64,000 bases of DNA from Closterium sp. NIES-65 (lineage: Eukaryota > Streptophyta > Zygnematophyceae > Desmidiales > Closteriaceae). The position numbers and the translations under genes were made by a program. The notes under the pieces are model-generated. The model saw only the letters and a program-made list of their open reading frames with translations. It did not search any database and was not told where the DNA came from. Shown piece after piece: positions 2,859 to 47,172 of this stretch (positions within the stretch are counted from its first letter, which is position 1; every line of letters starts with the position of its first letter). The DNA lies in the NCBI GenBank assembly GCA_948144175.1, contig CANXME010000222.1, positions 744,001 to 808,000 on the forward strand, written 5' to 3'.

Positions 2859-3217
2859 TATCAGAATCCCAACCACTAGACCATTGGGATAAATGTGTTT
2901 GTTTGTGTAGTAGGTCCGTGCGCCCCTAACCCCCTAGATGAACGCGCATGTAACTCCTCTAGGATCAATCAGGGATCTTATAGTGCAGCTCTACTGACAC
3001 CCGCCCAAACTGAGCACATCGGCAACGGCCTTAAGTGCATACACTAGGATTGGAACCCGAGACCGCTCTAATACCATGTTAGAATCCCAACCACTAGAGC
3101 ATCGGGATGAAAGAGCTTGTTTGTGTAGCGGATCCGTGCGCCTATAACCCACAACGCGAACGCGCATGTAACCCCCCTATGATTGATCGAGGATCTCACA
3201 CTACAGCTCCACTGACA
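2859..3217 (-). mobile_element. TRIM (miniature LTR element), copy 1
   Basis: Two 141-bp direct repeats (2859-2999 and 3077-3217) flank a 77-bp internal segment, and GATCC is duplicated exactly on both sides (2854-2858 and 3218-3222). On the minus strand the LTRs run from TGTCAG to TCTGATA/TCTAACA, followed by a TGGTAT primer-site start. There is no coding capacity. tRNA-like A-box and B-box sequences lie across the LTR/internal boundary. The LTRs differ at roughly a sixth of positions, so this is an old insertion, made into the leader of element A. It belongs to the same family as 19667-20428 and 57631-57975. Confidence 0.85.
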
Positions 3218-3366: not shown

Positions 3367-3811
3367 TGTTGGAAACAACTAATTCTAAGCGCCTCTGTCG
3401 TGTCGAAACACCAAGGCACAAGCGAAGCACAACATATCGCAGCATCAGCGAGTCAACCCTCGGAGGTTGAGCAACTGCTGGAGGTTACGCGAAAGTCAAA
3501 GGTTAGCGACCTTTGACCTGACAAGTACAACGCGACAGCAAGGACACACAATTGACTCGCTACAGAGCAGTTGCCCAAGTCGTCACTGTATCGAGCCGCA
3601 ACAGCAACAGTAAAGTAGTTATAACCGTATCTCTTCGTATTCCTTGTACTCTTATATAATCCTGTATCTCTTTGTTTCAATCACTCTACTTTGCCCTCAC
3701 ATACTAGCGCAAGGTGGTTCACAACTCTTTATTGAAACGCTTCCGCTATTACATCAGTCCTACCCAGAGTTCACCCCTGCAAAGATCCTAAGGGCTTTTC
3801 TCAGCCCAACA
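3367..3811 (+). repeat. 5' LTR of element D
   Basis: This is a 445-bp LTR with TGTT...AACA ends. It matches 23341-23787 along its whole length, with roughly twenty to twenty-five differences and small indels. A TATA-like tataatcct stretch and CT-rich sequence lie in its second half. The 5-bp duplication GCAAC precedes it. Confidence 0.92.
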
Positions 3812-3824
3812 TCGTATTAGAGCT

Positions 3825-3949
3825 TGTCAAACTTATATGCTATAGTCTGTGTAGGCTGTAGTGGGGTAGACTATATGGGGTACAACACTTCTAGGTTTCC
3901 CTACTTGTACCCACCTGCTTGCTAGTTCATTCATTCCTCATTTTTCACA
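3825..3949 (+). repeat. 5' LTR of element B
   Basis: This is a 125-bp LTR with TG...CA ends and a five-base direct duplication (GAGCT) outside. A primer-binding site follows directly. Confidence 0.92.
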
Positions 3950-3965
3950 TGATATCAGAGCAGGT
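3950..3965 (+). other. Primer-binding site of element B
   Basis: The sequence TGATATCAGAGCAGGT adjoins the LTR and differs at one base from the TGGTATCAGAGCAGG of element C. It is the plant copia site complementary to initiator-Met tRNA. Confidence 0.8.
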
Positions 3966-4019
3966 TCCCTAGTGGGAACGCTTCCTTGGGCCCACCACTG
4001 AAAATTTACTTTCATGACC

Positions 4020-4960
4020 GGAGCGCCAGTCGCTCCTGCCCGAGGCGCACCTTTTTGCCACCCTTTCCAGGCCCCTAGTTGCCCCTAGCGGCCTCGTCGC
4101 CGCACCTCACGCAGCCCCATTACCGCCCCTACGCGGCCTCGTCGTCACCCTTAGCGGCCCCGTTGCCGCCCCTAGCGGCCCAGTCGCCGCCTCACCCTAC
4201 GCGGCCCCGTCGCCGCCCCTACGCGGCCCCGTCGCCGCCCCTCCGCGGCCCCGTTGCCGCCCTTAGCGGCCCCGTCGCCGCCCCTAGCGGCCCCGTCGTC
4301 GCCTCTCACCCTACGCGGCCCCGTCGCCGCCCCTACGCGGCTCCGTCGACGCCCCTAGCGGCCACGTCGCCGCCCCTCGCGGCCCCGTCGCCGCCTCTCA
4401 CCCTACGCGGCCCCGGCGTCGCCCATACGCGGCCCCATCACCGCCCCTAGCGGCCCCGTTGCCGCCCCTACCGGCCCCGTCGCCGCCTCTCACCCTAAGC
4501 GGCCCTGTCACCGCCTCTAACCCTAAGCGGCCCCGTCGCTGCCCCTAATCGGCCCCGTCGCCGCCCCTAAGCGGCCCCGTTGCCGCCCCTACGCGTCCCT
4601 GTCGCCGCCTCTAAGCGGCCCTGTCGCCGCCACTACACGGCCCCGTCGCCCCTCCCCTCCCTAAGCGGCCCCGTCGCCGCCCCTAGCGGCCCCAACGCCG
4701 CCCCTACCGAGCAGCCCAGCAGCTGAGCCGCCCAACAGCAGAGCCGCCGAGCCGTCCAGCAGCCGAGCCGCCCAACAACCGAGCCACCGAGCCGCCCAGC
4801 AGCCGAGCCGCCGAGCCGCCGAGAAGCCGAGCCGTCGAGCCGCCGAGCCGCCCAGCAGCCGAGCCGCTGAGCTGCCCAGAAGCCGAACCGCCGAGCCGCT
4901 TGACAGCCGAGCCGCCCAGCAGCCGAGCCGCCCTGCCGTCGAGCCGCTCCTCGTCCTACC
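4020..4960 (+). repeat. GC-rich minisatellite leader of element B
   Basis: The first part (about 4080-4700) repeats a roughly 20-bp unit of the type gcggccccgtcgccgcc(cta). The second part (about 4700-4945) repeats gccgagccgcccagca. It separates the primer site from the gag start at 5023. Long open frames here come from the repeat and are not genes. Confidence 0.85.
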
Positions 4961-5022
4961 GGTGCGCCCCAGCCCTACTTACTCGGACTGGTGAGCTCAC
5001 TCCTTGCTAGGCCACTGCAGTC

Positions 5023-6270
5023 ATGGCTACCCCCAGTGTTCTTACCTTTGATACTAAGGGTCGTGCTGTTGACTTTGAGGTCTGGGTCGATGACCTCCAG
5101 CTGTTCCTCCAATGCGATAGGGCAGACGGCCTCTCCCTGTTCGACCTCACCTCTAGGTGCCTCCCCTGCCCCGCCTGCTACTGCTGACAGCACTGTTCGC
5201 TCATAGTGGGCAACACGCGATGCTGCTACCACTTACCGACCACTGAGCGTGCGCACTTTAGCCAGTACAAGAGTGCTCAGACCTTGTACAACGCTGTAGT
5301 TGCACGCTACTCTTCCCCTGCCACTGCTGCACTGAGCCGCCTCATGCTACCGTACCTCTTCCCTGACCTTGCTGCCTTTCCCATAGTCGCTGACCTCATT
5401 ACGCACCTCCGCACTAGTGACACTCGCTACCGCGCTGCGCTTCCTACTAAGTTCTGCGCCAAGAACCCCCCCCCCCCATGTACATCACCCTCTACTACAT
5501 AGTCACCCAGCTCCCTGACTCTCTTCGCTTAGTCAGGGACCACTTCCTCTCAGTTTGCCCCACCACACTCACCATTGACCTCCTCGAGGAGCGCCTCCTA
5601 GCAGTAGAGAAGAGCATAGTTGCTGTAGGAGCCTCTCGTGGTAGCCCTCGCACCCTCGTCTTTGAAGGGTGTTCCCCATCCCCCCTCTTGCCCTCTGTTG
5701 CTTCTACTGCTGCCGCCGACCTCGTTGGTTTCTACGGGGTCGGCGCTGCGTCTGCCCCTAGGGAGAGACGCTGCACCGGCAAGGGCAAGGGGGGCAAGGG
5801 AGCTGGACGGGCTAGCGGGGGCGGTGGAGGTGGTGGTGGAGGCAGTGGAGGGGGCGGGGGTGGTGGTGGGAGTGGTGGCGGGGGTGGCGGCGGTGGTGGT
5901 AGCAGTGGAGGCGGAGGAGGCGGCAGTGGTGGCGGAGGGAGCGGAGGCGGCGGAGGTGGCGGAGGCGGCGGAGGTGGCGGAGGCGGCGGAGGCGTCGGCG
6001 GCGGCGGTGGAGCTGGTCGCGACTCTGCGCAGACGAGTGGGTCCGGTGGTGGTCCGCGCCAGCAGCAGCTGCGCAGTCGTGAGACCCTGTCCCCTCAGCA
6101 GCTTCGTGAGTGGTACGCTGCGCGTCAGCGGCGTGGGGGTACTGGTCCCTGCACTTACGTCCTCCGTACCGGCGACCGCGCAGGTGAGCAGTGCGGGGGC
6201 CCGCACTCCACCCAGCGCTGCTTCGGCCACCTGACGGACGCGTGGCGTCACCAGTTCCCTGAGGCGTAAG
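5023..6270 (+). pseudogene. Gag block of element B
   Basis: Gag starts at the ATG at 5023 (MATPSVLTFD). The UBN2-type capsid domain shows YRAALP and VTQLPDSLR, then an arginine/lysine-rich patch (GKGKGGKGAG) and about 80 residues of nearly pure glycine. A Cys/His module follows: C-TYVLRTGDRAGEQ-C-GG-x-H-x4-C, then FGHLTDAW. This module takes the place of the usual CX2CX4HX4C zinc knuckle. The block is broken in a few places. Confidence 0.8.
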
Positions 6271-6347
6271 AGATCCCTTGCTGGGGAGATCTGTCTAGGG
6301 CGGGGGTTGCCATCTTTGATCTTGAATATGATGCTATCCTTGCTGCC

Positions 6348-7850
6348 ATGTATGCTGTGTCTGCTAGTGTTGAGGGTGACTGTTACCTGTGTGTACCGCC
6401 TGACCCAGGCATTGAGGCTACTGCTCTAGGTGCTGGTGAGGCTGCTGCTCTAGGTGCTAGTGCATCTGCTGCCCCAAGTGCTAGTGCGTCTGCTGCCCCA
6501 GGTGCTGGTGAGTCTGCTCTCTCAGGTACTACGTTGGCTCAGGCGTCACACACCTTCACCCTTGACTCGGGTGCTTCCCGCTCCTTTCGAGACCGCACCA
6601 CGCTTGCGCCGCTTAGTCGGCCGATTGCAGTCTCCCTGGCGGACCCCTCTAGGGGTCCTGTCCTTGCTAGCTTCTCCACTGTCTTACCATGCCCGGCAGC
6701 CCCCTCTGGCACCCTGTCACGTCTCTACCTACCCTCGTTCTCTACAAACTTGGTGAGTGGAGCGGACCTACAGGATAGGGGGGTTGACCAGTTCACTCCT
6801 GCGAGTCAGCGGGTGACCCACTGCACGTGTGCTGGTCACCCATTCCTGCCTTGTCTCCGAGAGATGGCCTCCCGTGTCCTTGGTCACCCCTTCCTGCCTC
6901 GTCTCCGAGAGATGGCCTCCCGTGTCCTTGTCTCTGGTCTCCCCCTGTCTCTCCCTCCCCTACCTCCGGGGCCTGCCCCTACATGCGTCCCCTGCGTCGA
7001 GGGGCGACAGCGCGCCGCCCCTCACTCCTCTGAGTTTCCTCCGACAGAGGCTCCGCTGCAGACTCTCCACATGGACGTGTGGGGCCCCGCCCACGTCCGT
7101 GGACAGGGGGACGAGCGTTACTTCCTGTTGGTGGTTGACGACTACTCGCGTTACACCACAGTCTTCCCCTTGCGCAGCAAGGGTGACGTCACTGAGGTGT
7201 TGATTGACTGGATCCGCGCAGCTCGACTCCAGCTGAAGGAGAGTTTCGGCTCGGACTTTCCTGTTCTGCGTCTGCACTCTCACAAAGGCGAGGAGTTTTC
7301 CTCTGCCCGTTTGGGAGCCTTCTGTCGTGCACAGGGCATCCGCCAGACTTTCACGCTTCCGGCCTCTCCTCAGCAAAATGGGATTGCTGAGTGCCGCATT
7401 GGCATGGTCATGGACGTCGCACGTACGTCCATGATCCATGCGGCTGCCCCCCATTTTCTGTGGCTGTTTGCGGTTCAGTACGCAGCGCATCAGCTCAACC
7501 TTCAGCCCCGGGTCTCCTTACCAGAGACCTCCCCCACCTTGCGGTGGACGGGGAAGGTTGGCGATGCATCTGCGTTTTCGGTCTGGGGATCTCGGGCGTT
7601 TGTCCGCGACTTGTCTGCGGACAAGCTGTCCCCCCGTGCTGTTCCCTGCGTCTTCCTTGGCTTCCCTCCTGACGCGCCTGGTTGGCAGTTTTACCACCAC
7701 ACCTCGCGCCGTGTTCTGTCCTCCCAAGACGTCACCTTTGACGAGTCGGTACCTTACTACCGTCTCTTCCCCTACCGCACTGCGCCCCTTCCCCCGCCGC
7801 TGCTCTTCCTTGCGCCAGGTCCTCCCCCGGTAGACCCCCTCCCCCCTTAG
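6348..7850 (+). pseudogene. Protease, GAG-pre-integrase and integrase block of element B
   Basis: Traces in order: FTLDSGAS protease active site, LYLPSFSTNLVS, the C-V-P-C-V-E-G zinc-binding region, MDVWGPAHV (start of the DDE core), VVDDYSRYTTVFPL, QQNGIAE (end of the core), and the integrase C-terminal DAPGWQFYHH region. There is an internal short duplication ahead of the integrase core. It is a fossil. Confidence 0.85.
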
Positions 7851-7979
7851 GGTCCTGCCCGTCAGGTGTGTCCCAGGTAGACGCAGTCGAGCCTGATTGC
7901 CCCTGAGGGAGACTCGGATGCACCAGATATCCCGACTCCTTGATCGTACGCTGAGGCGATCGAGGGTCCCTACTCCTCA

Positions 7980-9380
7980 CAGTGGCAGTCAGCCATGGAC
8001 GCAGAGATGGCTTCCTGGAAGTCCACAGGCACCTACGTCGACAAGGTTCCCCCACCTGGGGCGAACATCGTCAGTGGCATGTGGATTTTCAGGGTGAAGC
8101 GGCCGCCGGGTTCTCCGCTTGTCTTCAAGGCGCGTTTTGTGGCTCGAGGCTTCAGTCGGCGGCAGGGAGTTGACTACTTTCAGACCTTCTCTCCCACCCC
8201 TAAGATGACCACTCTTCGGGTGCTGCTGCACATAGCCGCTCAGGGCGACTACGAGCTTCACTCTCTTGACTTCAGCACAAGCTTTCCTGCAGGGCAGCCT
8301 GCACGAGGAGATCTGGCTGCGCCGCCCACCTGGCTTCACTTGGTCGTTTCCCCTTGGTACCAAGTGGAGCCTCCAGCGGCCAGTCTACGGTCTCCGCCAG
8401 GCGCCCAGTGAGTGGCACGACACACTGAGGACTACACTTGCGGCTCTTGGGTTTGCTCCTTCTACAGCCGACTCGTCGCTGTTTCTGCGCACTGACACCT
8501 CTTTGCCGCCATTCTACATCCTCATGTACGTCGACGACTTTGTCTTTGGCACTGCTGGACTCGCCCACGTTAATTCCGAGCTACAGAAGAGACACACGTG
8601 CACAGACCTGGGTGAACTGCGCAGCTACCTTGGCTTGCAGATCACCCGGGACAGAGCACAGCGCACCATTACCCTGACTCAGTCACACATGGTGCAGCAG
8701 GTCCTTCAGCGCTTCGACTTCACGTACTCCTCGCCTCAGGCCACTCCTCTGTCTACTCGCCACTCACTCTCAGCTCTGCCTTTGGATGAGTCCGTAGAGC
8801 TGAGTGGCCCGTATCCAGAGCTTGTTGGCTGCCTCATGTACCTGATGACCTGCACACGACCTGACCTTGCATACCCTCGTAGCATCTTGGCACGCTATGT
8901 TGCTCCTGGGAGACACCGACCAGAGCACATGGCTGCAGCAAAGAGGGTGTTGCGCTACTTGTGCAGTACGTGAGGCATGGGGCTAGTGCTTGGAGGGCGA
9001 CGTCGAGTGGTCCTCACAGGTCACGCTGACGCTTCTTGGGCTGACTACCAGGCTCTGCAGCGGTCGACACAGGGTTACACCTTCAGCCATGGCACCGGCT
9101 CTGTTTCGTGGCGGTCTACCCGCTCGTCTTCTGTTCTCAGCTCCAGTTGTGAGGCTAAGATCTACGCGGGGGCCATGGCTGCACAGGAGCTACGTTGGCT
9201 CACCTACCTGCTGACTGACCTAGGAGAGCCGCCTGGTTCTCCTCCAGTTCTGTACGTAGACAACAAGGCCATGCTGGCCTTGTGTCGGGAGCACAGACTG
9301 GAGCACAGAACGAAGCACATTGCTCTTCGCTACTTCCTTGCTCGTGAGCTGCAGCAGCGTGGCCAGCTGCGCCTTGCTTA
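7980..9380 (+). pseudogene. Reverse transcriptase and RNase H block of element B
   Basis: Traces in order: MDAEMASWKSTGTY, MWIFRVKRPPGSP, RGFSRRQGVDYFQTFSPT, VYGLRQAPSEWHD, MYVDDF (catalytic YVDD), LGLQITRDRAQR, then the RNase H domain with HADASWAD and TKHIALRYFLAREL. The alga-family spacer rich in Gly/Ala found in C between integrase and RT is largely missing here. The copy is broken. Confidence 0.85.
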
Positions 9381-9688
9381 GGCCAACACTGCTGATATCT
9401 TTACCAAGGCACTTCCGCCTTGTGATCATCAGCGCTTTTGTACGTTGCTAGGTCTTGTGCCTACTTGGCCTCACTTGCTCACTTCTTGACCTTGCTTGTA
9501 CTGTGATTTTTTTATACCTGCACTTGCTTGTTTACCTATATATATTTGATCTTCCATGTGAACTGGCCTTATGGCCTTGCTCTTGTGCTCGGACTGTGTG
9601 GTGACGTTGTGATCCACCCTGAGCTTACTTTGCTTTGCTTGTTTGGTCTTGTGACCTCTTGTTCTCCCCCGCTTTGCCTATGGGGGTG

Positions 9689-9813
9689 TGTCAAACTTAT
9701 ATGCTTTAGTCTGTATAGGCTGTAGTGGGGTAGACTATATGGGGTACAACACTTCTAGGTTTTCCTACTTGTACCCACCTGCTTGCTAGTTCATTCATTC
9801 CTCATTCCTCACA
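9689..9813 (+). repeat. 3' LTR of element B
   Basis: This 125-bp copy has five differences from the 5' LTR. It is preceded by CTATGGGGGTG and followed by GAGCT. Confidence 0.92.
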
Positions 9814-11020: not shown

Positions 11021-11152
11021 TGTCAGAACATTATAGCTTACTTATTTGTGTAGGCTATAGTGGGGTATCCCATAGGGGGTACAACCCAATTAGGGTTTCC
11101 TATTTGTACTCACTTCATTCATAGTCATTCCATTCTCGTTCAATTCTTCTCA
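11021..11152 (+). repeat. 5' LTR of element C
   Basis: This is a 132-bp LTR with TG...CA ends. It is flanked outside by ACACC and inside by the primer site TGGTATCAGAGCAGG. Confidence 0.94.
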
Positions 11153-11168
11153 TGGTATCAGAGCAGGT
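11153..11168 (+). other. Primer-binding site of element C
   Basis: TGGTATCAGAGCAGGT is the classic plant copia site complementary to initiator-Met tRNA, immediately after the LTR. Confidence 0.85.
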
Positions 11169-11239
11169 CCCCTCCTAGGGACTGTTCATAGGGCCTACCG
11201 AAGCGCGCCCCGAGGCGCGCGTTTTTTTTAGCGACCCTT

Positions 11240-12140
11240 CGTGTCGCCCCTAGCGGCCCGTCGAGCCGCCCTTACCTACGCGACCCCGCCGCCCTTTGGT
11301 CGCGGCCCCGTCGCCCTCACATCGCGGCCCCGCCGCCCTCACGTCGCGGCCCCGCCGCCTCACCTAAGCGGCCCCGCCGCCCTCACGTCGCGGCCCCTTC
11401 GCCCTCAAGACGCGGCCCCGCCGCCTTCACGTCGCGGCCCCGCAGCCTCACCTACGCGGCCCCGCCGCCTCACCTACGCGGCCCCGCCGCTCTCACGTCG
11501 CGGCCCCGCCCCCTTACATACGCGGCCCCGCCGCCTCACCTTCGCGGCCCCGCCGCCCTTACCTTGACGGCCCCGCCGCCCTTACCTTGACGGCCCCGCC
11601 GCCCTTACCTTGATGGCCCCGCCGCCCTTACCTTGACGGCCCCGACGCCCTTACCTTGACGGCCCCGCCGCCCTTACCTTGACGGCCCCGCCGCCCTTAC
11701 CTTGACGGCCCCGCCGCCCTTACCTTGACGGCCCCGCCGCCCTTACCTTGACGGCCCCGCCGCTCTTACCTTCGCGGCCTCGCCGCCCTCACCTTCGCGG
11801 CCCCCCACCGCCCTTTACCCTCGCGGCCCCGACGCCTTCACCTACGCGGCCCTGCCGCCTTCACCTACGCGGCCCCGCCGCCTTCACCTTCTCTACTACG
11901 CCGCCCGGTACCGGAGCAGCCGACACGCTCAGCAGCAGCTGCCGAGCCGCAGTCCAGCCGAGCCGCCCAGCAGCAGCCGCCAAGCCGCCGGGCCGCCGAA
12001 CCGCGGTACAGCCGAGCCGCCCAGCAGCAGCCGCCGAGCCGCCCAGTAGCACCCGCCGAGCCGCCGGGCCGCCGAGCCGCAATACAGCCGAGCCACCCTG
12101 CTGCCGAGCCGCCCTACTGCCGAGCCGCCCGACCTGCCCT
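11240..12140 (+). repeat. GC-rich minisatellite leader of element C
   Basis: About 11570-11770 repeats a near-perfect 23-bp unit of the type acggccccgccgcccttacc(ttg). The flanks carry looser versions (gcggccccgccgcctcac). About 11940-12120 carries gccgagccgcccagcagc repeats. The layout (GGCCCCG part, then GCCGAGCCGCC part, then gag) matches element B, but the unit differs. Confidence 0.85.
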
Positions 12141-12209
12141 GTCTGGTGAGCACAGCCCCACTGCTACTGCGTGCTTTTCCCACACTGCTTGCACTGCTAG
12201 TCTGTCGTC

Positions 12210-13490
12210 ATGGCTACCCCTAGTGTCCTAGCTTTTGACGCTGAGGGTCGCGCCATTGACTTTGAGGTCTGGGTAGACGACCTGCAGCTGTTCTTACAGT
12301 GCGATAGGGCAGACGGTCTTTCTCTCTTTAACCTCACCTCTGGCGCCGTCCCTGCCCCTGCTGCTGATGCTGACGCCACTGTTCGCTCACAGTGGGCCAC
12401 GCGCGATGCTGCTGCACGTCTTGCTGTGCGTCCCCACCTGCCTACCGCTGAGCGCGCGCACTTTAGTCAGTACAAGAGTGCCCAAACCTTGTACGACGCT
12501 GTAGTTGCGCGCTACTCCTCCCCTGCCACTGCTGCACTGAGCCGCCTCATGCTTCCCTTCCTCTTCCCTGACCTTGCCGCCTTTCCCACTGTCGCTGATC
12601 TCATTACGCACCTCCGCACTAGTGACACTCGCTACCGCGCTGCGCTCCCTGCTGACTTCTGCGCCAAGAACCCCCCCCCCATGTACATCACTCTCTACTT
12701 TTTAGTCACTCGCCTCCCTGACTCCCTTCGTGTAGTCCGGGACCACTTCCTCGCAGTCTGTCCCACCACCCTCACAGTCGACAGCCTCGAGAAGGCCCTC
12801 CTAGCCTCGGAGAAGAGCATAGTCGCTGTAGGAGCCTCTCGAGGTGACCCCCGCGCCCCCATCTTTGAGGGGTGTTCTCCTTCCCCTCTCTTGCCCTCTG
12901 TCGCCTCTGCCGCTGCGGCCGACCTTGTTGGTCTTGAGTCGGTCGCTGCGGCGTCTACCCGTAGCGGGAGACGCCGCTCTGGCAAGGGCAAGGGGGGCAA
13001 GGGAGCGGGTGGAGCCAGCGGGGGCGGTGGAGGTGGAGGTGGAGGCGGCGGAGGGAGTGGGGGTGGCGGTGGAGGTGGTGGCAGGGGTGGGGGTGCTAGT
13101 GACGGCGGTGGAGGCGGGGGTGGCGGCGGCGGTGGTGGTGGGAGCGGACGTGGCGGAGGCGGAGGCGGTGGAGGCGGAGGTGGGGGTAGCGGTGGTGGAG
13201 GTGGTCGGAGTGGCGCTTCGCAGCGGAGCAGCACTGGGGGTGGTCAGCGCCAGCAGCAGTAGCAGCAGCGTTCTCGCGACGTCCCCACCCCTCAGCAGCT
13301 CCGTGAGTGGTACACGCAGCGTCAGCGTGGTGGGGGTTTTGGTCCCTGCACCTACGTTCTTCGCACTGGCGACCGCGCTGGAGAGCAGTGTGGGGGTACC
13401 CACACCGCCCAGCGCTGCTTTGGCCGCCTGACGGACGCTTGGCGCCAGCATGTTCCTGGAGGCTGCGGAGATCCCCCGCTGGGGAGAGCT
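12210..13490 (+). pseudogene. Gag block of element C
   Basis: MATPSVLAFDAEGRA starts at 12210. The capsid domain is followed by a GKGKGGKGAG basic patch, then about 90 residues of glycine with a few Ser/Arg, then the module C-TYVLRTGDRAGEQ-C-GG-THTAQR-C and FGRLTDAWRQ. Of the family members here this is the most readable gag. The element as a whole is still broken. Confidence 0.85.
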
Positions 13491-15190
13491 GTCTAGGGCA
13501 GGTGTAGCTATCTTTGATCTTGACTTTGATGCTATCCTTGCTGCCATGTATGCTGTGACCATTAGTGATGAGGGTGACTGTTACAGGTGTTTCTCGCCCG
13601 ACCCGGGCATTGGTACTGCTGCTCTAGGTGCCAGCGAGGCTTCTGCTCTAGGTGCCAGTGCATCTGTGCTCTCAGGTACTGGTGAGGCTGCTCTCTCAGG
13701 TACTAGTGAGTCTGCGCTCTCAGGTACTGCGTCGGCTTCGGCCTCCCACACCTTCACTCTTGACTCTGGAGCGTCTCGCTCCTTCTTTCGGGACCGCACC
13801 ACACTCACGCCGCTTAGTCGGCCGGTTGCGGTGTCCCTGGCTGACCCCTCTGGGGGTCCTGTCCTGTCTCGCTTCTCCACAGTCCTCCCGTGTCTGGCGG
13901 CTCCCTCTGGCACCCTGTCTGGTCTCTACCTCCCCTCGTTCTCTACGAACTTGGTGAGTGGTGCTGACCTACAGGATGCGGGAGTCCACCAGTTCACCCC
14001 TGCTCGTCAGCGGGTGACGCACTGCACAGAGGCTAGCACAGGTCGTCACCTGGCTACGTTTACACGTCAGCCAGGGTCGAGCCTGTACACACTGACCACT
14101 GCTTCTCCTCTAGTTCCTGAGTTTGGTAGGGTCCCTTTGTCAGGTCAGGTGTTTGCTGCAGCGTCCAGGTCTGGTCCTGAGTCTGCCCCCTGTTCGTGTC
14201 GTCGACTGTCTCACGAGACTCTCCTCTGGCACCACCGCCTGGGTCACCCCTCTCTGCTTTGGCTCAGAGGCATGGCCTCCCTTCTTCTTGTGTCTGGTCT
14301 CCCCCGATCCCTCCCTCCCCTTCCTCAGGGCCCTGGCCCTGCCTGTGTCCCCTGTGTCGAGGGGCGCCAGCGTGCTGCCCCTCACTCCTCCCAGTTTCCT
14401 CCGACAGAGGCTCCGTTGCGGACGCCTCACATGGACGTGTGGGGCCCTGCCCGCGTCCGTGGACTCGGTCACGAGCGCTACTTCCTGTTGGTGGTTGACA
14501 ACTACTTGCGTTACACCACAGTCTTCCCCTTGCGTAGCAAGGATGATGTCACTGAGGTGCTGATCGACTGGATCCGCGCAGCTCGTCTCCAGCTCAGGCA
14601 GAGCTTTGGCTCGGACTTTCCTGTGTTACGTCTGCACTCGGACAGAGGCGGAGAGTTCTCCTCTGGCCTTCTGCGTGCCTACTGTCGTGCGCGAGGCATC
14701 CGTCAGACCTTCACGCTTCTGGACTCACCGCAGCAAAATGGGACTGCAGAGCGCCGCATTGGCATGATCATGGACGTCGCTGTACGTCTATGATGCATGC
14801 GGCTGCCCCCCATTTTCTATAGCCGTTTGCGGTCAGGTACGCGGCGCATCAGATCAACCTCCACCCCAGGGTCTCCAGGCTGGAGACCTCCCCAGCCCTG
14901 CTGTGGACGGGGAAGGTTGGCGATGCATCGGCGTTCCGGGTCTGGGGATCTCGGGCGTTTGTCCGCGACTTGTCTGCGGACAAGCTGTCCCCTCGCGCTG
15001 CTCCCTGCGTCTTCCTGGGGTTCCCCCCCGACGCCCCTGGGTGGTAGTTCTACCACCCCACCTCTTGACGTGTTCTGTCCTCCCAGGACGTCACGTTCGA
15101 CGAGTCGGTACCCTACTACCGCCTCTTCCCCTACCGCACTCCGTCCCTCCCCCCACCCCCGCTCTTCTTGGTACCAGGTCCCCCCCCGGT
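13490..15190 (+). pseudogene. Protease, GAG-pre-integrase and integrase block of element C
   Basis: It shows HTFTLDSGASRSFF (protease), LLWHHRLGHPSL (GAG-pre-integrase HHRLGH motif), MDVWGPARV and VVDNYLRYTTVFPL (integrase core start), LHSDRGGEFSS (core Asp motif), QQNGTAERRIG (core end) and the integrase C-terminal WGSRAFV / RTSCPL region. Domain order and spacing are normal for Ty1/copia. Confidence 0.88.
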
Positions 15191-15239
15191 AGACCCCCTT
15201 CCCCCTCAGGGTCCTGCCCGTTCAAGTGTGTCCCAGGTA

Positions 15240-15860
15240 GACGCGGTCGAGCCTGTCAAGGTCACTGGTGACTCTGGTGCTGCTGTGGGTGCTGAGCCTA
15301 GGGGTGTTGTGACTGGGGGTGCTGTGCCTGGGGGTGCTGAGCCTGGGGGTGCGGAGCTTGGGGGTGCGGAGTCTGGGGGTGCTGAGCCTGGGGGTGCTGA
15401 GCCTGGGGGTGCTGAGCCTGGGGGTGCTGAGCCTGGGGGTACTGAGACTGGAGGTGCTACGCCTGGAGGTGCTTTGCCTGAGGGTCCTGAGCCTGGAGGT
15501 TCTTCGCCTGGAGGTTCTCCGGGTGCTTTGTCTTGCCGAGAGCCACTCTCCCCACAGGAGCTGCGTGAGTGGTTTGCCCGGCGCTGGAGGCGTGCTGCTG
15601 GTGCTGGAGGTTCTTCGGCTACTGAGGGTGCTGCTGCCGCGCGTCCCGGAGGTGCTCGTACTGGGAGTACTGGAGCTGCTGGGCCTGCGGGTTCTACTGG
15701 AGCTGGTGCTGCTGAGCGTGTTGGCGCTAAGACTACCGCTGGCGGTCCGACTGGCAGTGCTCCTGGTGCTGCTGGAGGTTCTGGGGCTGCTGGAGGTGCT
15801 ACTGGGGGTTTTGGAGCTACTGGAGGTGCTGCTGGAGGTGCTGCTGGAGCGGGTACTCCT
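15240..15860 (+). repeat. Gly/Ala-rich coding spacer between integrase and reverse transcriptase, element C
   Basis: 15-bp units (gggggtgctgagcct) encode a run of G-G-A-E-P, followed by Gly/Ala/Thr-rich coding sequence. A similar but differently built Gly/Ala/Leu-rich spacer lies in element F (about 62430-63160). The linker between integrase and RT is known to be variable in Copia. Confidence 0.75.
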
Positions 15861-16569
15861 GCTGGGGGTACTGGTGCTGTCCCTTGCTGTTTCTGGCGTC
15901 GCCACGCGGCCCCGACCGTACTTCGTTCCAATCCTGCCGCAGGTTCTTGGTCTTACACCTTCTCCTGGTCCTCCTCCTCCTCCCTTACAGGGTCCACAGC
16001 CTGTCCAGTCACAGTCACAGCTACTGCCTGCCTCCCCTTTGCCTGCTCCTTCTCCCTATACTGGTCCGACTGGAGGTCTTACTGAGCGTCAAGAGCTTGC
16101 GTCTTGTCCTGCGTCGCCTGTTCGTGCTGCCACACTAGTGGTCGCGGTTCGCGTCAGCGTCCTCCTCCTGTCCCTGGCACGCACCGGATGTCTTTGCGTC
16201 CGTCTACTGCTCCTCTGCGTGCCCCTTTGCCTTCTCCTCCTGCTTCCTCTCTTCCTGCTCTTGCCGACCCAGAGTCGGACTCTCTTCGTGCTGCCAGTCC
16301 TACTGTCACGCGTCTCCTTGCTACTGCCGTCACTTACCCTTCTTTCGAGTCTTCTGCTGCGTCTGCCCTTGTTACTGAGCTCGTCGACTTTGCTGCGCGC
16401 TGTCGTCTAGACTACGCTGCTAGTCTTGTCGCTGAGTCTGAGTCTACTTGTCCTCCGTCCGTCGGGGGTGAGTGTGCCCTTGGCACGGACGTCCTTGAGG
16501 ACGGGCAGGAGGAGTTCCAGTGTCTGGCCGCCGCTTCACCTCATCTCGCGTCTATACTGCTCACCCCTG

Positions 16570-18140
16570 AGGGAGACCCGGATGCACTAGACATCCCGAC
16601 TCCGCGCTCTTACGCGGAGGCGATAGAGGGTCCCTACTCCTCTCAGTGGCAGGCAGCTATGGATGCAGAGATGGCTTCCTGGAAGTCCACAGGCACCTAC
16701 GTTGACGATGTTCCCCCTCTTAGGGCGAACATCGTCAGTGGCATGTGGATCTTCAGGGTGAAGCGGCAGCCGGGTTCTCCGCCTGTTTTCAAGGCGCGTT
16801 ACGTGGCTCGTGGCTTCAGTCAGCGGCAGGGAGCTGACTACTTTCAGACCTTCTCCCCCACCCCGAAGATGACCACTCTTTAGGTACTGCTGCACGTTGC
16901 TGCTCACCGTGACTACGAGCTGCACTCTCTCGACTTCAGCACTGCTTTCTTGCAGGGCAGCCTGCACGAGGAGATCTGGCTGCGTCGCCCACCTGGCTTC
17001 ACTGGGTCTTTCCCTCCTGGTACCCAGTGGAGTCTCCGGCGTCCAGTCTACGGTCTCCGCCAGGCGCCGCGTAAGTGGCACGACACAGTGAGGACTACGC
17101 TGGCGGCACTTGGGTTTGCTCCTTCCACTGCAGACCCCTCACTGTTTCTGCGCACCGACAGCCTCTCTGCCGCCGTTCTACATCCTCGTGTACGTCGACG
17201 ACTTGGTTTTTGCCACAGCTGACATTGTTGGACTCGCCTACGTGAAGTCCGAGCTGCAGAAGAGACACACGTGCACTGACCTGGGTGAACTGCGCAGCTA
17301 CCTTGGCTTGCAGATCACCCGGGACAGAGCACGCCGCACCATTACCCTGACTCAGTCACACATGGTGCAGCATGTCCTTCAGCGCTTCAGCTTCACGTAC
17401 TCCTTACCTCAGGCCACTCCTCTGCCTACTCGCCACTCACTCTCAGCTCTGCCTTCGGATGAGTCCGTAGAGTCGAGTGGCCCGTATGTAGAGCTAGTTG
17501 GCTGCCTCATGTACCTGATGACCTGCACTCGACCTGACCTTGCATACCCTCTTAGCATTCTCGCACGCTATGTTGCTCCTGGGAGACACCGACCAGAGCA
17601 CATGGCTGCAGCGAAGAGGGTGTTGCGCTACTTGTGCAGTACGTCGGGCATGGGGCTAGTGCTTGGAGGGCGTAGTCCAGTGGTCCTCACTAGGCACGCG
17701 GATGCTTCTTGGGCTGACGACCAGGCTACGCAGCGGTCGTCACAGGGTTACACCTTCAGCCTTGGTTCCGGCTCTGTTTCGTGGCGGGCTACCCGCTCGT
17801 CTTCTGTTCTCGGCTACAGTTGTGAGGCTGAGATCTACGCCGGGGCTATGGCTTCCCAGGAGCTTCGCTGGCTCACCTACCTGCTGACCGACCTTGGAGA
17901 GCCGCCTCGTTCTCCTCCAGTCTTGTACGTAGACAACAAGGCCATGCTGGCCTTGTGTCGAGAGCAGCGACTGGAGCACAGGACAAAGCACATTGCTCTT
18001 TGCTACTTTCTTGCTCGTGAGCTACAGTAGCGTGGACAGTTGCGACTTGCGTACGTGGCCGTCTGAGGCCAACACTGCTGATGTCTTCACCAAGGCACTT
18101 GCGCCTTGTGATTATCAGCGCTTCTGCACGCAGCTGGGTC
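16570..18140 (+). pseudogene. Reverse transcriptase and RNase H block of element C
   Basis: RT shows SYAEAIEGPYSSQWQAAMD, MWIFRVKRQPGSPP, RGFSQRQGADYFQTFSPT, VYGLRQAPRKW, VYVDDLVF (catalytic YVDD) and LGLQITRDRARR. RNase H begins at HADASWADDQ and ends near TKHIALCYFLARELQ. It is very similar to the same block of B. The copy is broken. Confidence 0.88.
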
Positions 18141-18387
18141 TTGTGTCTGTCTTGCCTCACTTGCTCACTTCTTGACCTTGCTTGTACCTTCACCTTTATA
18201 TACTCTTGCTCCTGCTTGCTTGACTCTTGTATATCTCTATATGTGATCTTGCATGTGAACTGGCCTTCTGGCCTTTGAACTTGTGCTCGGAATGTGTGGT
18301 GACTTTGTGATCCACCCTGAGCTTTGCTTTGTTTTGCTTGACTGGTCTTGTGACCCCTTGTTCTCCCCCACTTTGCCTATGGGGGTG

Positions 18388-18519
18388 TGTCAGAATATTA
18401 TAGCTTACTTATTTGTATAGGCTATAGTGGGGTATCCCATAGGGGGTACAACCCAATTAGGGTTTCCTATTTGTACTCACTTCATTCATAGTCATTCCAT
18501 TCTCGTTCAATTCTTCTCA
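18388..18519 (+). repeat. 3' LTR of element C
   Basis: This 132-bp copy has two base differences from 11021-11152. It is preceded by CTATGGGGGTG and followed by the duplication ACACC. Confidence 0.94.
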
Positions 18520-19250: not shown

Positions 19251-19666
19251 ACATCCACCGGATCTTGACCCAGACTTCAGCCCCGGCGGTTTCTGGTATT
19301 CACACACGATACGTGAAGCAGAAAGAACAAGAGCGTTAGAGACAACTCAACATTCGGCAGCAGCAGAGACAACATCGGCAGCAGCAGAAACAACATTGGT
19401 AGCAGCAGAGACAACATTGGCAGCAGCAGAGGACAACATTTGCAGCAGCAGAGACAACAACGGCAGCAGCAGAGACAACGGAGACGACAGCAGCAACATC
19501 AACACCAATCGCTGGTCCTTCAATGGCACCGATCTTCGTCGACGACACACCACCGACACCCGCGTAGCAACTGCACCCAGCATCATGAGAAGTTCATCGA
19601 AGCGCCAACCTCACCGCTAGCTTCTATTCCAACTCTGATATGCATCGGCGCTCACTCGGACATTGT

Positions 19667-20428
19667 TCTCAGAATCCCAACCACTAGACCATTGGGATAA
19701 AAGGGCTTGTTTCAGTAGCGGGTCAGTGCGCCCATAACCCCCCAGGCAAACGTGCCTGTAACCCTTCCCTAGGATCGATCGGGGATCACCAGTGGACCTC
19801 TGACACCCCCCCGCACTGGGATGCCCGAAGTGCATACACCGGGATTCGAACCCGAGACCTTCGCTCTGGATACCATCTCAGAATCCCAACCACTAGACCA
19901 TTGGGATAAAAGGGCTTGTTTGTGTAGCGGGTAAGTGCGCCCATAACCCCCCAAGCCAACGTGCCTGTAACCCTTTCTTAGGATCAATCGGGGATCACCA
20001 GTGGACCTCTGACACCCCCCCGCACTGGGATGCCCGAGGTGCACACACCAGGATTCGAACCCGAGACCTTCGCTCTGAATACCATCTCAGAATCCCAGCC
20101 ACTAGACCACTGGGATAAAAGGGCTTGTTTGTGTAGCGGGTAAGTTCGCCCATAACCCCCCAGGCAAATGTGCCTGTAACCCTTCCGTAGGATCGATCGG
20201 GGATCACCAGTGGACCTCTGACACCCCCCCGCACTGGGATGCCCGAAGTGCATACACCGGGATACGAACCCGAGACCACTCTGATACCATCTCAGAATCC
20301 CAACCACTAGACCATTGGGATAAAAGGGCTTGTTTCAGTAGCGGGTCAGTGCGCCCATAACCCCCCAGGCAAACGTGCCTGTAACCCTTCCCTAGGATCG
20401 ATCGGGGATCACCAGTGGACCTCTGACA
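19667..20428 (-). mobile_element. TRIM multimer: four LTRs and three internal segments, inserted in D
   Basis: There are four 139-bp repeats (19667-19805, 19876-20014, 20085-20223, 20290-20428) separated by internal segments of 70, 70 and 66 bp. The whole is flanked by ATTGT (19662-19666 and 20429-20433). On the minus strand each LTR runs TGTCAGAGGTCC...GGATTCTGAGA and is followed by TGGTATCCAGAGC (TGGTATCAGAG in one copy), a Met-tRNA-type primer site. Each internal segment ends in a run of seven G before the next TGTCAG, a polypurine tract. The outermost LTRs are identical base for base; the two inner ones differ from them by several percent. There is no coding capacity. Confidence 0.9.
20224..20323 (-). 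promoter_or_regulatory. tRNA-like Pol III box pair across the LTR/internal junction of the TRIM (representative copy)
   Basis: On the minus strand the LTR end holds TGGTCTAGTGG, a good A box (20304-20320 region), and the internal segment holds a GGTTCGAATCC-type B box about 49 bases further on (drifted to GGTTCGTATCC in this particular copy, exact in the copies at 19840-19860 and 20050-20065). TCCCAATGGTCTAGTGGTTGG reads like the 5' half of a tRNA-Glu, and GGTCTCGGGTTCGAATCCC like a T arm. The primer-binding site lies between them, where the anticodon arm would be. Promoter activity is an inference. Confidence 0.6.
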
Positions 20429-20439
20429 ATTGTGCCACC

Positions 20440-23340: not shown

Positions 23341-23787
23341 TGTTGGAAACAACTAATTCTAAGTGCCTCTATCGTGTCGAAACACCAAGGCACAAGCGAA
23401 GCACAACATATCGCAGCATCAGCGAATCAACCCTCGGAGGTTGAGCAACTGCTGGAGGTTACGCGAAAGTCAAAGGTCAGCGACCTTTGACCTGACAAGT
23501 ACAGCGCGACAGCAAGGACACACATCTGACTCGCTACAGAGAAGTTGCCCGAGTCGTCACTGTATCGAACCGCAACAGCAACAGTAAAGTAGTTGTAATC
23601 GTATCTCTTCGTATTCCTTGTACTCTTATATAATCCTGTATCTCTTTGCTTTAATCGATCTACTTTGCCCTCACATACTAGCGCAAGGTGGTTCACAGTA
23701 CTCTTCATTAAACGCTTCCGCTATTACATCAGTCCTACCCAGAGTTCACCCCTGCAAAGATCCTAAAGGCTTTTTCTCAGCCCAACA
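23341..23787 (+). repeat. 3' LTR of element D
   Basis: This 447-bp copy of 3367-3811 is preceded by the polypurine tract GAAGGGGAG and followed by the target duplication GCAAC (23788-23792). Confidence 0.92.
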
Positions 23788-31600: not shown

Positions 31601-34600
31601 ATTCTCGCGGTGCAGACAAGGACTGGGAGGACATTCGATTTGGAGTGGAGAACAAGGTGGACTACTACGCGCTCTCCTTCGTCAAGGACGCCCAGGTCGT
31701 GCTGCAGCTCAAGGAGTACCTCAAAGGTGCGCGCTGCACCGCATGGCACCACATGGTACTGCGTGGCATCACATGGCACCACGTGGCTGTTTGTGTCTTC
31801 CACCTGTCTCCCCACCTCACCCCACATTATCCCCACCCCATGCACACTTCACATTTCCACTCCCCCCCAACCCACTGTCGCCCCCTCTCCCACCTCCCAC
31901 CCCCCACGCTCCATGCTGAGTTGCATCCCCCACTCCTTCCCTCTCCATTCTCCCACCCCATGGACTCTTCCCCTTCCTCCTCCTGCCAAGCCAGGGTGCG
32001 GAGATTGGCTGGCGTGACAACCAAGATTGAAGTGCCGACGCCATTCACAACCTCGCTGTTTGCTGCATGCTGTCGCCACCTCCTCTTTCTCGCCCCCCCC
32101 CTCCTCCCTCCCCCCCTTCCCCAACCTTCGCCGCCAGGCCAGGGCGCGGACATCGGGGTGATAGCCAAGATCGAGAGTGCGGACTCCGTGCCCAACCTGC
32201 ACGCCATCCTCGAGGCCTCCGACGGGGTACGCAGGGGCCACGGGACTGCGCGTGGGGCGCGGTGGGAGACAGGGGGGGTTCGGGCGGGGGAGTTGGGGTG
32301 ATGGGGCAGGGGATGAGGTGGGGCAGAGGGACACCAGGGAAACTGGTGGGGAGGGGGGAACCCAGGGGGCCAGGGGGGCCAGGGGGGACATAGTGATGGG
32401 AACAGGGAAGATGGTGTGCAATGGGCATGGGGGCGGTGCAGGCGGGAAAGGGAGGGATGGGACAGGCAGTGGAGGAGAGGGCGATTTCGGTTACTCTGCT
32501 GTATGCGCCGCGCCCCATCCCTTTGAAAGGCTCTCCCCCTCCTCCACATTTCCCCGCCTCTGCTACCCGCGGTCCCTACCTCCGCCCATCGCTACCTGCT
32601 TCCACCCCCCCCCTCCGCCTCCGGCTTACCTTGTTCCTTCAACCCCTCTCATTGTGAATCTCCCCATCCGTTTTAATAAGTCCCCATGCCAGCTGTGCTT
32701 TTCCCCGATTTCCCTTCCCTTCCTCCACCTTTAAGTCTCTCACTGCCTCACCACCCTTTTCTGCCTCTCTGCCTCTCTGTCTGTCTGCCTCTCTTCCTCT
32801 CTGCCTGTCTGCCTCTCTTCCTCTCTGCCTCTCTGCCTCTCTGCCTCTCTGCCTCTCTGCCTCTCTTCCTCTCTGCCTGTCTGCCTCTCTTCCTCTCTGC
32901 CTCTCTGCCTCTCTGCCTCTCTTCCTCTCTGCCTCTCTGCCTCTCTGCCTCTCTTCCTCTCTGCCTCTCTGCCTCTCTGCCCCTCTGCCCAATCTGGCCT
33001 CTCCGCCACTTCCGCCCCCTTTTCCCCCTCTGCTCTGCCCCCTCTGCCCCCCTCTGCCCCCCTCTGCCCCCTCTGCCCCCTCTGCCCCCCTCTGCCCCCC
33101 TCTGCCCCCTCTGCCCCCTCTGCCCCCCTCTGCCCCCTCTGCCCCCTCTGCCCCCTCTGCCCCCTCGGCCCCTCTCGGCCCCCCTGGCGTGTGTGTGCGG
33201 CAGGCCATGGTGGCGCGAGGGGACTTGGGAGCGGAGCTGCCAGTGGAGGAGGTGCCGCTGTTGCAGGTGTGTTCCTGTGAGACCAGGTTGCTGCATTGCT
33301 TGCTGCTCGTGTGCCGCTGCTGCAGGTACGATGCTGGCAGGGAGGCAGGGTGCTGCTTGCGGCGATGCTTGTTCCATGGCCACTGCAAGGCATGCTGTCT
33401 GCTGAAAACACACCGCCCGCTCAGCTGCTGGTTTGACCTGTGCTGCTCGTGTCATGTCATGTGCATGGCTCCTGGCGCATGTCTCTTGGCCTATGGCGCA
33501 TTGCGCATGGCAGCCCACTTCTCACCCTCACTACTCACTCCTCAACCCCTCGCCTGTCCTCACCCCATACACAACTGTCGTGGCAGGGCGAGATCATCCG
33601 GGTGTGTCGCGCGCTGGGCAAGCCGGTGATAGTGGCGACCAACATGCTCGAGTCCATGATCAACCACCCCACGCCCACTCGTGCTGAGGTACCTCCACCT
33701 TTCCTCCCCACCCTCCCCCCTGCAAACACCTTCTCCCCAACAGCCTTACCTTTTGCTCACCATTGCCTCTCCCCCACCCCCACCACCTCTCCTCCTTCCC
33801 CCTTGCCTTTTCTTCATTCCAAGTGTCCGTTGACATGCCTGCATGACATCATTGCCCCCATGCCTGCTGCGCCCTCAATGCTCCTGCCATGCACCCACGG
33901 CTGCCACGTGTCCATCACTGCCACGCGCTCTCAGGTGTCGGACATAGCGATCGCAGTGAGGGAGGGCACGGATGCCATCATGCTGTCGGGGGAGACGGCC
34001 CATGGCAAGTGAGTGCTGTCTGTCGGGGGAGACGGCCCATGGTAAGTGAGTGCTGTCTGTCGGGGGAGACGGCCCATGGTAAGTGAGTGCTGTCTGTCGG
34101 GGGAGACGGCCCATGGTAAGTGAGTGCTGTCTGTCGGGGGAGACGGCCCATGGTAAGTGAGTGCTGTCTGTCGGGGGAGACGGCCCATGGTAAGTGAGTG
34201 CTGTCTGTCGGGGGAGACGGCCCATGGTAAGTGAGTGTTGCTGGCCGTGGCGTGATTGATTTTGACCAGCTGTGGCGATGTACTTGGAGAAACGACAAAA
34301 AATCAGTACTATTCTCCAGAGAGCACTTTTCTCAAGCGCACGCGCATGTCCAGGTCTCATTCAAACAAGCGTTTTTATCATCTCAACAGGCTTATCACAC
34401 AAAGTGCACGGTTCATTAGATTTGCATGCTCGCTGCCTGCGTGTGTACTTGCCTGCCTGCGCGCCTACCGCCCTGCCTGTGTGCATGCATGTGTGCGCCC
34501 ACGTGTGCAGGTTCCCGCTGAAGGCGGTGAGGGTGATGCACACAGTGGCGGTGCGCACAGAGGCTACCATGGCCGTCCCTAACACCCCCGCCAACCTCGG

Positions 34601-38416: not shown

Positions 38417-39386
38417 TGTTAACAGGAATGGAGTGTTGGCCCCGCCCTCGCTTGGGCAACGCCGACGACTTGGTCGGATGCACGGGAGTAGCAACCGACC
38501 GTTCACAGTGGGAGAGCTGCTCGACAGGCTTCGTCGAGCTGCAGGGGACCGCTGTGGTGTTGCTGTCGACTAGGGAGCTCGACAGCTGCAACTGACTAGT
38601 CTGGGCGACGGGTGGGACGTCGACCAGGACCTGCAGTTCGACCGGGAGGTCGACGGAGCAGTCCGTCGACCTGACAAGTGAGCAGCGGTCGACGAGGGGA
38701 GCTCGGCGACAACCGCTGATGGTTTTGGTCGACGGAAGGGGTCCGTCGACCAGAGGGTAGCTCGACGGGAGTTGTGGTCGACCAGAGGGACCTGGTGGTC
38801 GACCGGAAGCACCTGGTGGTCGACCGGGTCGACTGGGTAACCTGCTCGACGAGTTCTGCGGAGGCACGCGAACGTCGTCGAGGTTGCGATGGCGCAGGCG
38901 ACTGCGGGCTGGTATCCCGGAGTCGATGTGGCTCGTCAGGCGCAGACAACAGCCGACGAATGCCCAACGAGGCAAGTCGGGCCAATCGTCTGCGCACACC
39001 TGCGAGCGTGCACACTGCTGTGTTCTACGGGGCAACGCTGGACAGCCGCTCTGCTGCAGCGTTGGCACGCCGTCGACTTGCTCCATTGGCAGGTCACCTT
39101 TCTGCAGTGCTGGCGCGGCTCCTCTACGCAACTCTGGCAGGCGATCGACTGAGCTGTGCTGTCGGTCGACCATGCTAGCAGCAGAGTTGCTAGGTGCCTG
39201 ATGTAGTCATTGTTGTCATTGCTTCTTGTATCATTCTGGAATTCCAACTTTGCTAGTGAAAACTCTTGTCAATTTCTCCCGTGAATGTGCAAGCACTAAG
39301 GAACCAATCAAAGCTACGATCACCTCTAGTAGTTCATGCCAACCCCCGTAGTCTAGCTCACTACCGTTGTAGAGTGAATCTCCGCA
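38417..39386 (+). repeat. 5' LTR of element E
   Basis: This is a long LTR of about 970 bp, unusually rich in GTCGAC, from TGTTAACAGG to TCTCCGCA. The first about 420 bp match 44801-45158. The inner end is set by the CA followed by a tRNA-complementary primer site. Confidence 0.7.
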
Positions 39387-39464
39387 TGGTGCGGTGAGCG
39401 TGGATCGAACACGCGACCTTCAGATAGGAGCCGACTTTTGCACCTACTAAGTCGTTCGTAGGCC
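39387..39464 (-). other. Primer-binding site of element E, extending into an antisense tRNA-like sequence
   Basis: The plus strand begins TGGTGCGGTGAGCGTGGATC directly after the LTR. Its complement ends in a tRNA-like acceptor strand with CCA. Read on the minus strand it also has a perfect T arm (GCGTG-TTCGATC-CACGC) and a D stem (GACT...AGTC) at about the right place. The anticodon arm is too short and the 5' acceptor strand does not pair, so it is not a working tRNA gene. The primer is not initiator-Met tRNA. Confidence 0.6.
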
Positions 39465-39673
39465 GGCAGCAGCGATAGTCGCCATGGTCGACCCCGTAGT
39501 TGATGCGGGCGTAGCGGACACCTTGGAGGCACGTTTGGCTGACGCGAGGAGACGCCACGCGGATGGCGAGTACGGGACGATCCCCTTAGTGATAGCCGAG
39601 TTGGGCATCCGGTCGCAGTGGGCGACGGAACACCCTTCCCGTCCTGCTTCTCCTTGACCGGTGCGCAACGAAG

Positions 39674-41000: not shown

Positions 41001-41019
41001 GGTTGTGCAGGCCAACCCA

Positions 41020-44600: not shown

Positions 44601-44800
44601 TGCTCTGTCACCATCGGCCAAGTTCGTCCATCCGACGTCGGCGACGGCGACGATGAGGTGCAGCAGTAGGTGCCATGCCCTTTTGCATGGCTGGTGCGGT
44701 GACGACGTGCTGTGTGTGGGGTGCACGCCGAGGATGAGTTTTGTCTCCGTGGAGTACTGCCGTGTGGGCTGGAGGCCAAAGCGTGAGCGCGGCAGGGGAG

Positions 44801-46993: not shown

Positions 46994-47172
46994 AGCACTT
47001 GGAGCCGGGCCAGTAGGAGTAGACGAGGAGCTCGTGGGCGGGTGGGAGGGACGGTGGGGGTACGGCAGCGCAGAGGGAGAGGGGAGGGGAGGGAAAATGG
47101 GGGGGGCTATCACGAGGCAGGAGACGAGCGAGGAGGGGAGAGGGCAGGGAGAAGGGGAAAGCGCGTAGCACC

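Follow-up and report, generated by a model that had tools for sequence, protein, structure and literature searches.

The closest described relatives of the elements considered here are the Helenus elements, defined by Kojima (2024) as TRIMs with tRNA-derived sequence in their LTRs (PMC10886601). In the account given there, their hosts are fungi, animals and one plant, Selaginella moellendorffii, where the family has an LTR of 120 bp, an internal region of 85 bp and a 5-bp TSD. Helenus, Cassandra and Ajax together form the proposed grouping TRIMp3, and Helenus and Cassandra are proposed to have arisen when a SINE inserted into an LTR (PMC10886601). Multi-unit transcripts have been reported for Cassandra, and template switching has been proposed for them (PMC7215508). 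Among plant TRIMs, tandem arrays are known in 129 subfamilies from 35 of 43 plant genomes (PMC4717578).

Here, we describe a TRIM family of the zygnematophycean alga Closterium sp. NIES-65, based on three loci (A, B and C) in a window of 64,000 nucleotides, the whole stretch of DNA that was analysed. A preliminary description had taken a TRIM whose Pol III promoter derives from a tRNA to be an undescribed combination. That claim fails, since the combination was published in 2024 as Helenus/TRIMp3 (PMC10886601). The Closterium family shares with Helenus a tRNA-derived region with A and B boxes, a PBS and a PPT; the 5-bp TSD of the fungal and plant Helenus families, found here at all three loci; tandem arrays, known in one Helenus family (LTR-11_DR) and here at locus B; and the involvement of Copia, a probable helper for fungal Helenus families and a candidate helper in Closterium (PMC10886601). 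One Helenus resembles its Copia in the internal region and not in the LTRs, which parallels the relation of the Closterium TRIM to the Copia at 11021-18519, and the use of Pol III by Helenus is likewise inferred in PMC10886601. By analogy, the Closterium TRIM would work like a TRIMp3 element.

The two differ in where the tRNA-like sequence lies: within the LTRs in Helenus, whereas in Closterium A box, primer site and B box are split across the LTR border. This distinction follows the general description of Helenus, apart from the layout of its sole plant family, Helenus-1_SMo (PMC10886601). Because the border divides the boxes, a definition that places the tRNA sequence in the LTR does not describe the Closterium elements. 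What looks novel is therefore the splitting of a predicted promoter across the LTR border, not a TRIM with a tRNA promoter as such; among the titles and abstract openings listed in literature searches, such a split finds no mention.

With Cassandra, the Closterium family shares a Pol III promoter logic (putative in Closterium), the PBS TGGTATCAGAGC, the formation of tandem arrays (PMC7215508) and a short terminal repeat of the RNA, 18 bp in Cassandra (PMC10886601) and about 10 nt as computed for the Closterium TRIM. Cassandra differs in that its promoter is derived from 5S rRNA and lies within the LTR, and in its greater element length of 565-860 bp (PMC10886601). Very small size is shared with SMART and the arrayed plant TRIMs (PMC3281118, PMC4717578), and tandem arrays of LTRs and internal regions between flanking TSDs with the latter (PMC4717578). 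Neither is described with a tRNA promoter: PMC4717578 makes no mention of tRNA, Pol III or polymerase III, nor PMC3281118 of tRNA or polymerase. Finally, tRNA-derived SINEs (SINE2) have a tRNA-derived Pol III head in common with the Closterium TRIM, but are without LTRs, PBS and PPT and are mobilised by non-LTR retrotransposons (PMC10886601).

Anatomy of the family and the tandem array

The three loci are insertions of miniature LTR retrotransposons (TRIMs) belonging to one family (table 1). All eight LTRs are 138-141 bp long and all five internal regions 66-77 bp. A perfect TSD of 5 bp flanks every locus. The internal regions begin with TGGTAT and end in a G-run in every case; the elements fall below 1000 bp, are without coding capacity and have an internal region bounded by PBS and PPT, as TRIMs do. 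Positions, LTR and internal sizes, the duplications GATCC, ATTGT and AACTG, and the assignment to LTR-retrotransposon insertions of TRIM size thus agree with the preliminary description. Its TG...CA-type ends need amending: TGTCAG starts all eight LTRs, but CA ends only three, the remainder having GA (four LTRs of locus B) or TA (one of locus A).

Paired LTRs differ at 30 of 141 positions in locus A and at 22 of 138 in locus C, by which both are old copies. When the window was compared with itself at E up to 1, no additional copies emerged, the matches being of 14-18 bases only. Pattern scans of virus and prokaryote contigs gave 0 matches to relatives, a result that says little because of the kind of contig scanned.

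Table 1. Coordinates of the TRIM loci, their putative promoter and terminator signals, and the candidate helper element (positions within the window).
Feature	Position	Strand	Remarks
Locus A TRIM	2859-3217	-	359 bp; LTR1 3077-3217, internal 3000-3076, LTR2 2859-2999; TSD GATCC
Locus B tandem TRIM array	19667-20428	-	762 bp; 4 LTRs, 3 internals
Locus B TSD ATTGT	19662-19666	.	low-coordinate side; partner 20429-20433
Locus B LTR1 (5' LTR)	20290-20428	-	identical to LTR4
Locus B internal 1	20224-20289	-	primer site TGGTATCAGAG intact over 11 nt
Locus B LTR2	20085-20223	-	
Locus B internal 2	20015-20084	-	extra base in primer site
Locus B LTR3	19876-20014	-	
Locus B internal 3	19806-19875	-	extra base in primer site
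Locus B LTR4 (3' LTR)	19667-19805	-	
Locus C TRIM	57631-57975	+	345 bp; LTR1 57631-57768, internal 57769-57836, LTR2 57837-57975; TSD AACTG
A box TGGTCTAGTGG	19890-19900 (LTR3); 19681-19691, 20099-20109, 20304-20314; locus A 2873-2883	-	
B box GGTTCGAATCC, exact	19842-19852 (internal 3), 20051-20061	-	
B box, one mismatch	20260-20270 (locus B), 3047-3057 (locus A)	-	
B box AGTTCGAATCC, locus C	57790-57800	+	one mismatch to GGTTCGAATCC
tRNA-like stretch, LTR1/internal 1 border	20256-20315	-	Rfam tRNA 14.2 bits
tRNA-like stretch, LTR2/internal 2 border	20040-20124	-	Rfam tRNA 14.5 bits
tRNA-like stretch, LTR3/internal 3 border	19838-19901	-	Rfam tRNA 15.3 bits
TTTT, candidate Pol III terminator, locus B	19908-19911 (LTR3), 19699-19702, 20117-20120, 20322-20325	-	
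TTTT, candidate Pol III terminator, locus C	57734-57737, 57941-57944	+	
Copia, candidate helper	11021-18519	+	132-bp LTRs TGTCAGA...TTCTCA; primer site TGGTATCAGAGC; PPT GGGGGTG; TSD ACACC

Locus B, the focal locus, had been recognized correctly as an LTR-element insertion, but it is a tandem array, in which four LTRs alternate with three internal regions, and not the single element it was taken for. LTR1 and LTR4 are identical over 139 of 139 bases; LTR2 and LTR3 each differ from these outer LTRs at 8 positions and from one another at 9 (Fisher, p = 0.007 for 0 versus 8 and p = 0.003 for 0 versus 9). With identity between the outer LTRs and 8-9 differences in the inner ones, the array was probably integrated as a multimer, its outer LTRs being renewed, on this account, by reverse transcription. 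The intact first primer site and the extra base in the two inner sites fit such an integration. A less likely history is that the array grew where it stands through unequal exchange, in which case the outer LTRs would have diverged as the inner ones have; gene conversion between the outer LTRs may be an alternative source of their identity.

tRNA-Glu likeness across the LTR border

When compared with a panel of 19 human tRNA genes, all five junctions between an LTR and the internal region that follows it aligned best to tRNA-Glu-TTC, and at each of them 0 of 1000 shuffles reached the score. The tRNA-Glu-like context proposed earlier for both boxes is borne out by this panel. The Rfam tRNA model gave a more restricted result: D arm and T arm were placed in register at all three junctions of locus B, with scores of 14.2-15.3 bits that all lie below the gathering score of 29, and no match was obtained at locus A or C at E up to 10. 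The E-values at locus B were 5.2-9.8 over 4227 families, or about 0.001-0.002 when divided by the number of families, and three families had lower values there than tRNA (Six3os1_3, 0.36; Plastid-ycf2, 1.1; snoU13, 1.6). Judging by the arms in register at locus B and by tRNA-Glu as the best match at five of five junctions, the likeness to a tRNA crosses the LTR border; the resemblance is real, with the primer site in the position of the anticodon arm.

A working tRNA gene was considered and rejected, as ARAGORN reported 0 in the window and the Rfam scores were below gathering. Predicted folds of three junctions contained no cloverleaf and were no more stable than those of shuffles (z = -0.33, -0.45 and -1.61). 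Counted over the D stem, 96.2% of pairs were formed, a value as high in 500 of 500 shuffles and hence no covariation signal. Likeness to 5S rRNA was sought as well: none of the Rfam families reached its gathering score in the window, and no 5S family was listed at E up to 10 around the three loci. The Six3os1_3 family also matched in antisense at the same place of the TRIM in two loci (57771-57871 and 19980-20080; 12.5 and 14.8 bits, gathering 40), and these sub-threshold matches are probably due to chance.

The A box, or a damaged homologue of it, lies in the LTR and the B box in the internal region at all five junctions. The A box assigned to the 3' end of the LTR ends 14 bases short of the LTR end and is exact in five of the eight LTRs (4/4 in locus B, 1/2 in locus A); it is damaged by one mismatch in LTR1 of locus A and by a 1-nt deletion in both LTRs of locus C. 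Of the B boxes likewise proposed, two are exact, both in locus B, and the three in the other internal regions have one mismatch each. GWTCRANNC, which we take to be the core consensus of the B box, is retained in three of five internal regions and altered in locus A and in internal 1 of locus B. The spacing between the boxes, given before as about 49 bp, is 44 or 48 from start to start in loci A and B. As a pair, the boxes of locus B score 18 out of 18; of 2000 dinucleotide shuffles, 0 attained this score and the best attained 16. Loci A and C each score 14, reached by 15 and 12 of 2000 shuffles, respectively, and the best pair of locus C is not at the homologous A box.

Between the boxes stands the primer site, whose first bases, TGGTAT at the start of the internal region, are also those of the iMet primer site of plant elements. 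A primer-site-like start had been claimed, and TGGTAT is present in all five internal regions, but the 12 bases of TGGTATCAGAGC are complete in none: there is one mismatch in locus A and in internal 1 of locus B and there are two in locus C, and internals 2 and 3 of locus B have no match within two mismatches.

Conservation between the loci was expressed as the rank of each stretch among windows of its own length. The better-ranked stretches were the T arm (4/192), U5 (12/178), the A box (12/199) and the motif AAACAAG (13/203). The B box (49/199) was not unusual, nor were TTTT (101/206) and the primer site (157/198); for the A and B boxes taken jointly the figure was 827 of 20,000 random window pairs.

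A minimal terminator of Pol III is TTTT. It occurs once per LTR in six of the eight LTRs (4/4 in locus B, 2/2 in locus C), where it abuts the tRNA-like start on its 5' side; the element strand of these two loci contains no other TTTT, and the LTRs of locus A contain none. Within 400 bases downstream of each of the three loci, no runs of four T were found, and TATAWA/TATAT and AATAAA/AATGAA are absent from the element strand of all three. From an assumed start and stop, unit RNAs of 215, 219 and 219 nt were computed for locus B and of 217 nt for locus C; their terminal repeat would be about 10 nt long.

A proposed split promoter and its alternatives

We infer that the family makes use of Pol III, and extend this to the start and stop of transcription, the use of the primer, the helper and the origin of the array. 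At a probability of roughly 0.55, the internal Pol III promoter of the family would be a remodelled tRNA-Glu body that spans the border between LTR and internal region, a model whose scope is three loci of one family in one window. The U5 end of the LTR would correspond to the 5' half of the tRNA, with the D arm and A box; the iMet-type primer site would stand in the place of the anticodon arm; and the T arm, with the B box, would be supplied by the internal region. A whole promoter would then exist only where an LTR is followed by an internal region, and a solo LTR or the last LTR of an element would be without one. Pol III would start close to the conserved AAACAAG, immediately 5' of the tRNA-like body; CAA motifs are a frequent start of plant tRNA genes. 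The transcript would take in the primer site, the B box, the PPT and the following LTR's U3, ending at the TTTT before the next tRNA-like start, and the product would be a unit RNA 215-219 nt long, in which a terminal repeat occupies about 10 nt. A Copia element would provide proteins in trans, iMet tRNA would prime reverse transcription and integrase would generate the 5-bp TSD. Multimers could arise by read-through of a weak TTTT or by template switching, and array B would have been integrated as one of them.

In favour of this model stand the TSDs and LTR anatomy, the tRNA-Glu likeness of all five junctions with D arm and T arm in register at locus B, the box score of that locus, the conservation of T arm, U5, A box and AAACAAG, the placing of TTTT, the lack of TATA-type and AATAAA-type motifs, the absence of the boxes from the Copia stretches searched, the LTR identities of the array and the features shared with the Copia at 11021-18519. 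Several observations count against it, among them the sub-threshold Rfam scores, the ARAGORN result, the folds without a cloverleaf, the ordinary conservation of B box, TTTT and primer site, and the dissimilarity of the LTR bodies of TRIM and short-LTR Copias. An RNA of the length of the array must cross several TTTT, locus A is without TTTT, and boxes are damaged at A, at C and in internal 1 of locus B. Decay of the boxes in loci A and C is expected because these are old copies, and is equally expected if the boxes are not needed. The second expectation leads to the strongest rival, in which an ordinary Pol II TRIM is transcribed by Pol II or by read-through from its neighbourhood and the likeness to tRNA-Glu is a fossil of the source sequence. 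Besides the damaged boxes of A and C, it is favoured by the conservation of the B box, no better than that of many other windows, and elements of such size that use Pol II do exist, given that TATAAAA is present in the small LTRs of SMART in Oryza brachyantha (PMC3281118). We nevertheless consider it unlikely, if a serious contender: the element strand lacks the TATA-type and AATAAA-type motifs named above, the T arm and U5 rank well for conservation between the loci, the LTR mismatches of loci A and C make box decay expected there in any case, and both boxes are exact at two of the three junctions of the focal locus.

A second rival holds that a U5 hairpin (AUCCCAAU / GUUGGGAU) beside the primer site has been kept for reverse transcription or packaging and that the tRNA likeness is secondary. 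The hairpin has 8 bp and appears in the minimum-energy fold of two of three junctions, both in locus B; pairing is found in 92.9% of cells, whereas sliding the partner gives no more than 55.4%, and LTR2 of locus B has one compensatory change from A-U to G-C. Locus C, however, folds otherwise, the covariation is equalled by 211 of 500 shuffles, and the conserved T arm and the match of both halves to the same tRNA are left unexplained, which makes this rival improbable. A third rival is chance. Motifs as short as the A and B boxes are frequent: for the A-box pattern TRGYNNAGYGG by itself, the window has 11 occurrences where 6.15 are expected, a number reached by 5 of 100 shuffles. Chance is nevertheless a very poor account of the box pair of locus B and the whole-junction alignments to tRNA-Glu, which no shuffle matched (0/2000 and, at each of five junctions, 0/1000).

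If the split Pol III promoter is real, Pol III-driven LTR elements can do without a whole promoter in the LTR, and the design would yield promoter-less solo LTRs and promoter-rich arrays. As to its origin, we offer a tentative scheme against which the odds stand somewhat: a SINE-like, tRNA-Glu-derived Pol III transcript could have acquired an iMet primer site within the anticodon arm, its 5' half becoming U5 and its 3' half the leader. A SINE-type RNA would so have turned into an LTR retrotransposon with a promoter found at junctions only, an RNA of about 215-219 nt and a repeat of about 10 nt. Were this true, it would suggest a route from tRNA-derived RNA to LTR retrotransposon, unlike the SINE insertion proposed for Helenus and Cassandra, and the gain by a Pol III-made RNA of the terminal repeat needed for reverse transcription would become directly testable.

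Copia elements and the surrounding sequence

The Copia at 11021-18519 is a plausible helper: its LTR start TGTCAGA, its primer site and the 5-bp length of its TSD recur in the TRIM, and both elements have a G-run as PPT. Its leader resembles all four TRIM internal regions compared, which left out internal 2 of locus B (0, 5, 6 and 11 of 1000 mononucleotide shuffles). Its LTR body is not similar to the three TRIM LTRs compared (153, 740 and 789 of 1000 shuffles). Homology of LTR bodies between the TRIM and the two short-LTR Copias was rejected on six comparisons covering three of the eight LTRs (153-826 of 1000 shuffles). Inheritance of the boxes from Copia was rejected likewise: the 5' LTRs of the two short-LTR Copias contain no A-box pattern, and the first 80 nt of three leaders contain no B-box core (one strand).

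An outer Copia occupies 3367-23787 (LTRs 3367-3811 and 23341-23787, TSD GCAAC); nested within it are a Copia at 3825-9813 (TSD GAGCT), the Copia at 11021-18519 and TRIM array B. Matches to the Pfam families RVT_2, rve, SH3, Pol_BBD and copia gag were found in 7 of 10 frames scanned, some of them below the curated cut-off. Another LTR element is probably present at 38417-45090, where frames that are Copia-like by eye lie between direct repeats that are about 290 bp long and share 96.6% identity.

Arrays with a 32-bp period lie at 44992-46218 and 51192-51922, their middle copies 97-99% alike, and a 21-bp tandem repeat at 46450-47057 lies inside open frames on both strands. G+C in the window is 53-66%, which together with the Copia elements and a pyruvate kinase frame indicates a eukaryote; the primer site of plant type suggests the green lineage. 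A repeat with an 8-bp period (32704-33047) lies within a few hundred bases of that frame; the one frame tested there matched pyruvate kinase (Pfam), and adjoining frames, inspected by eye, suggest introns.
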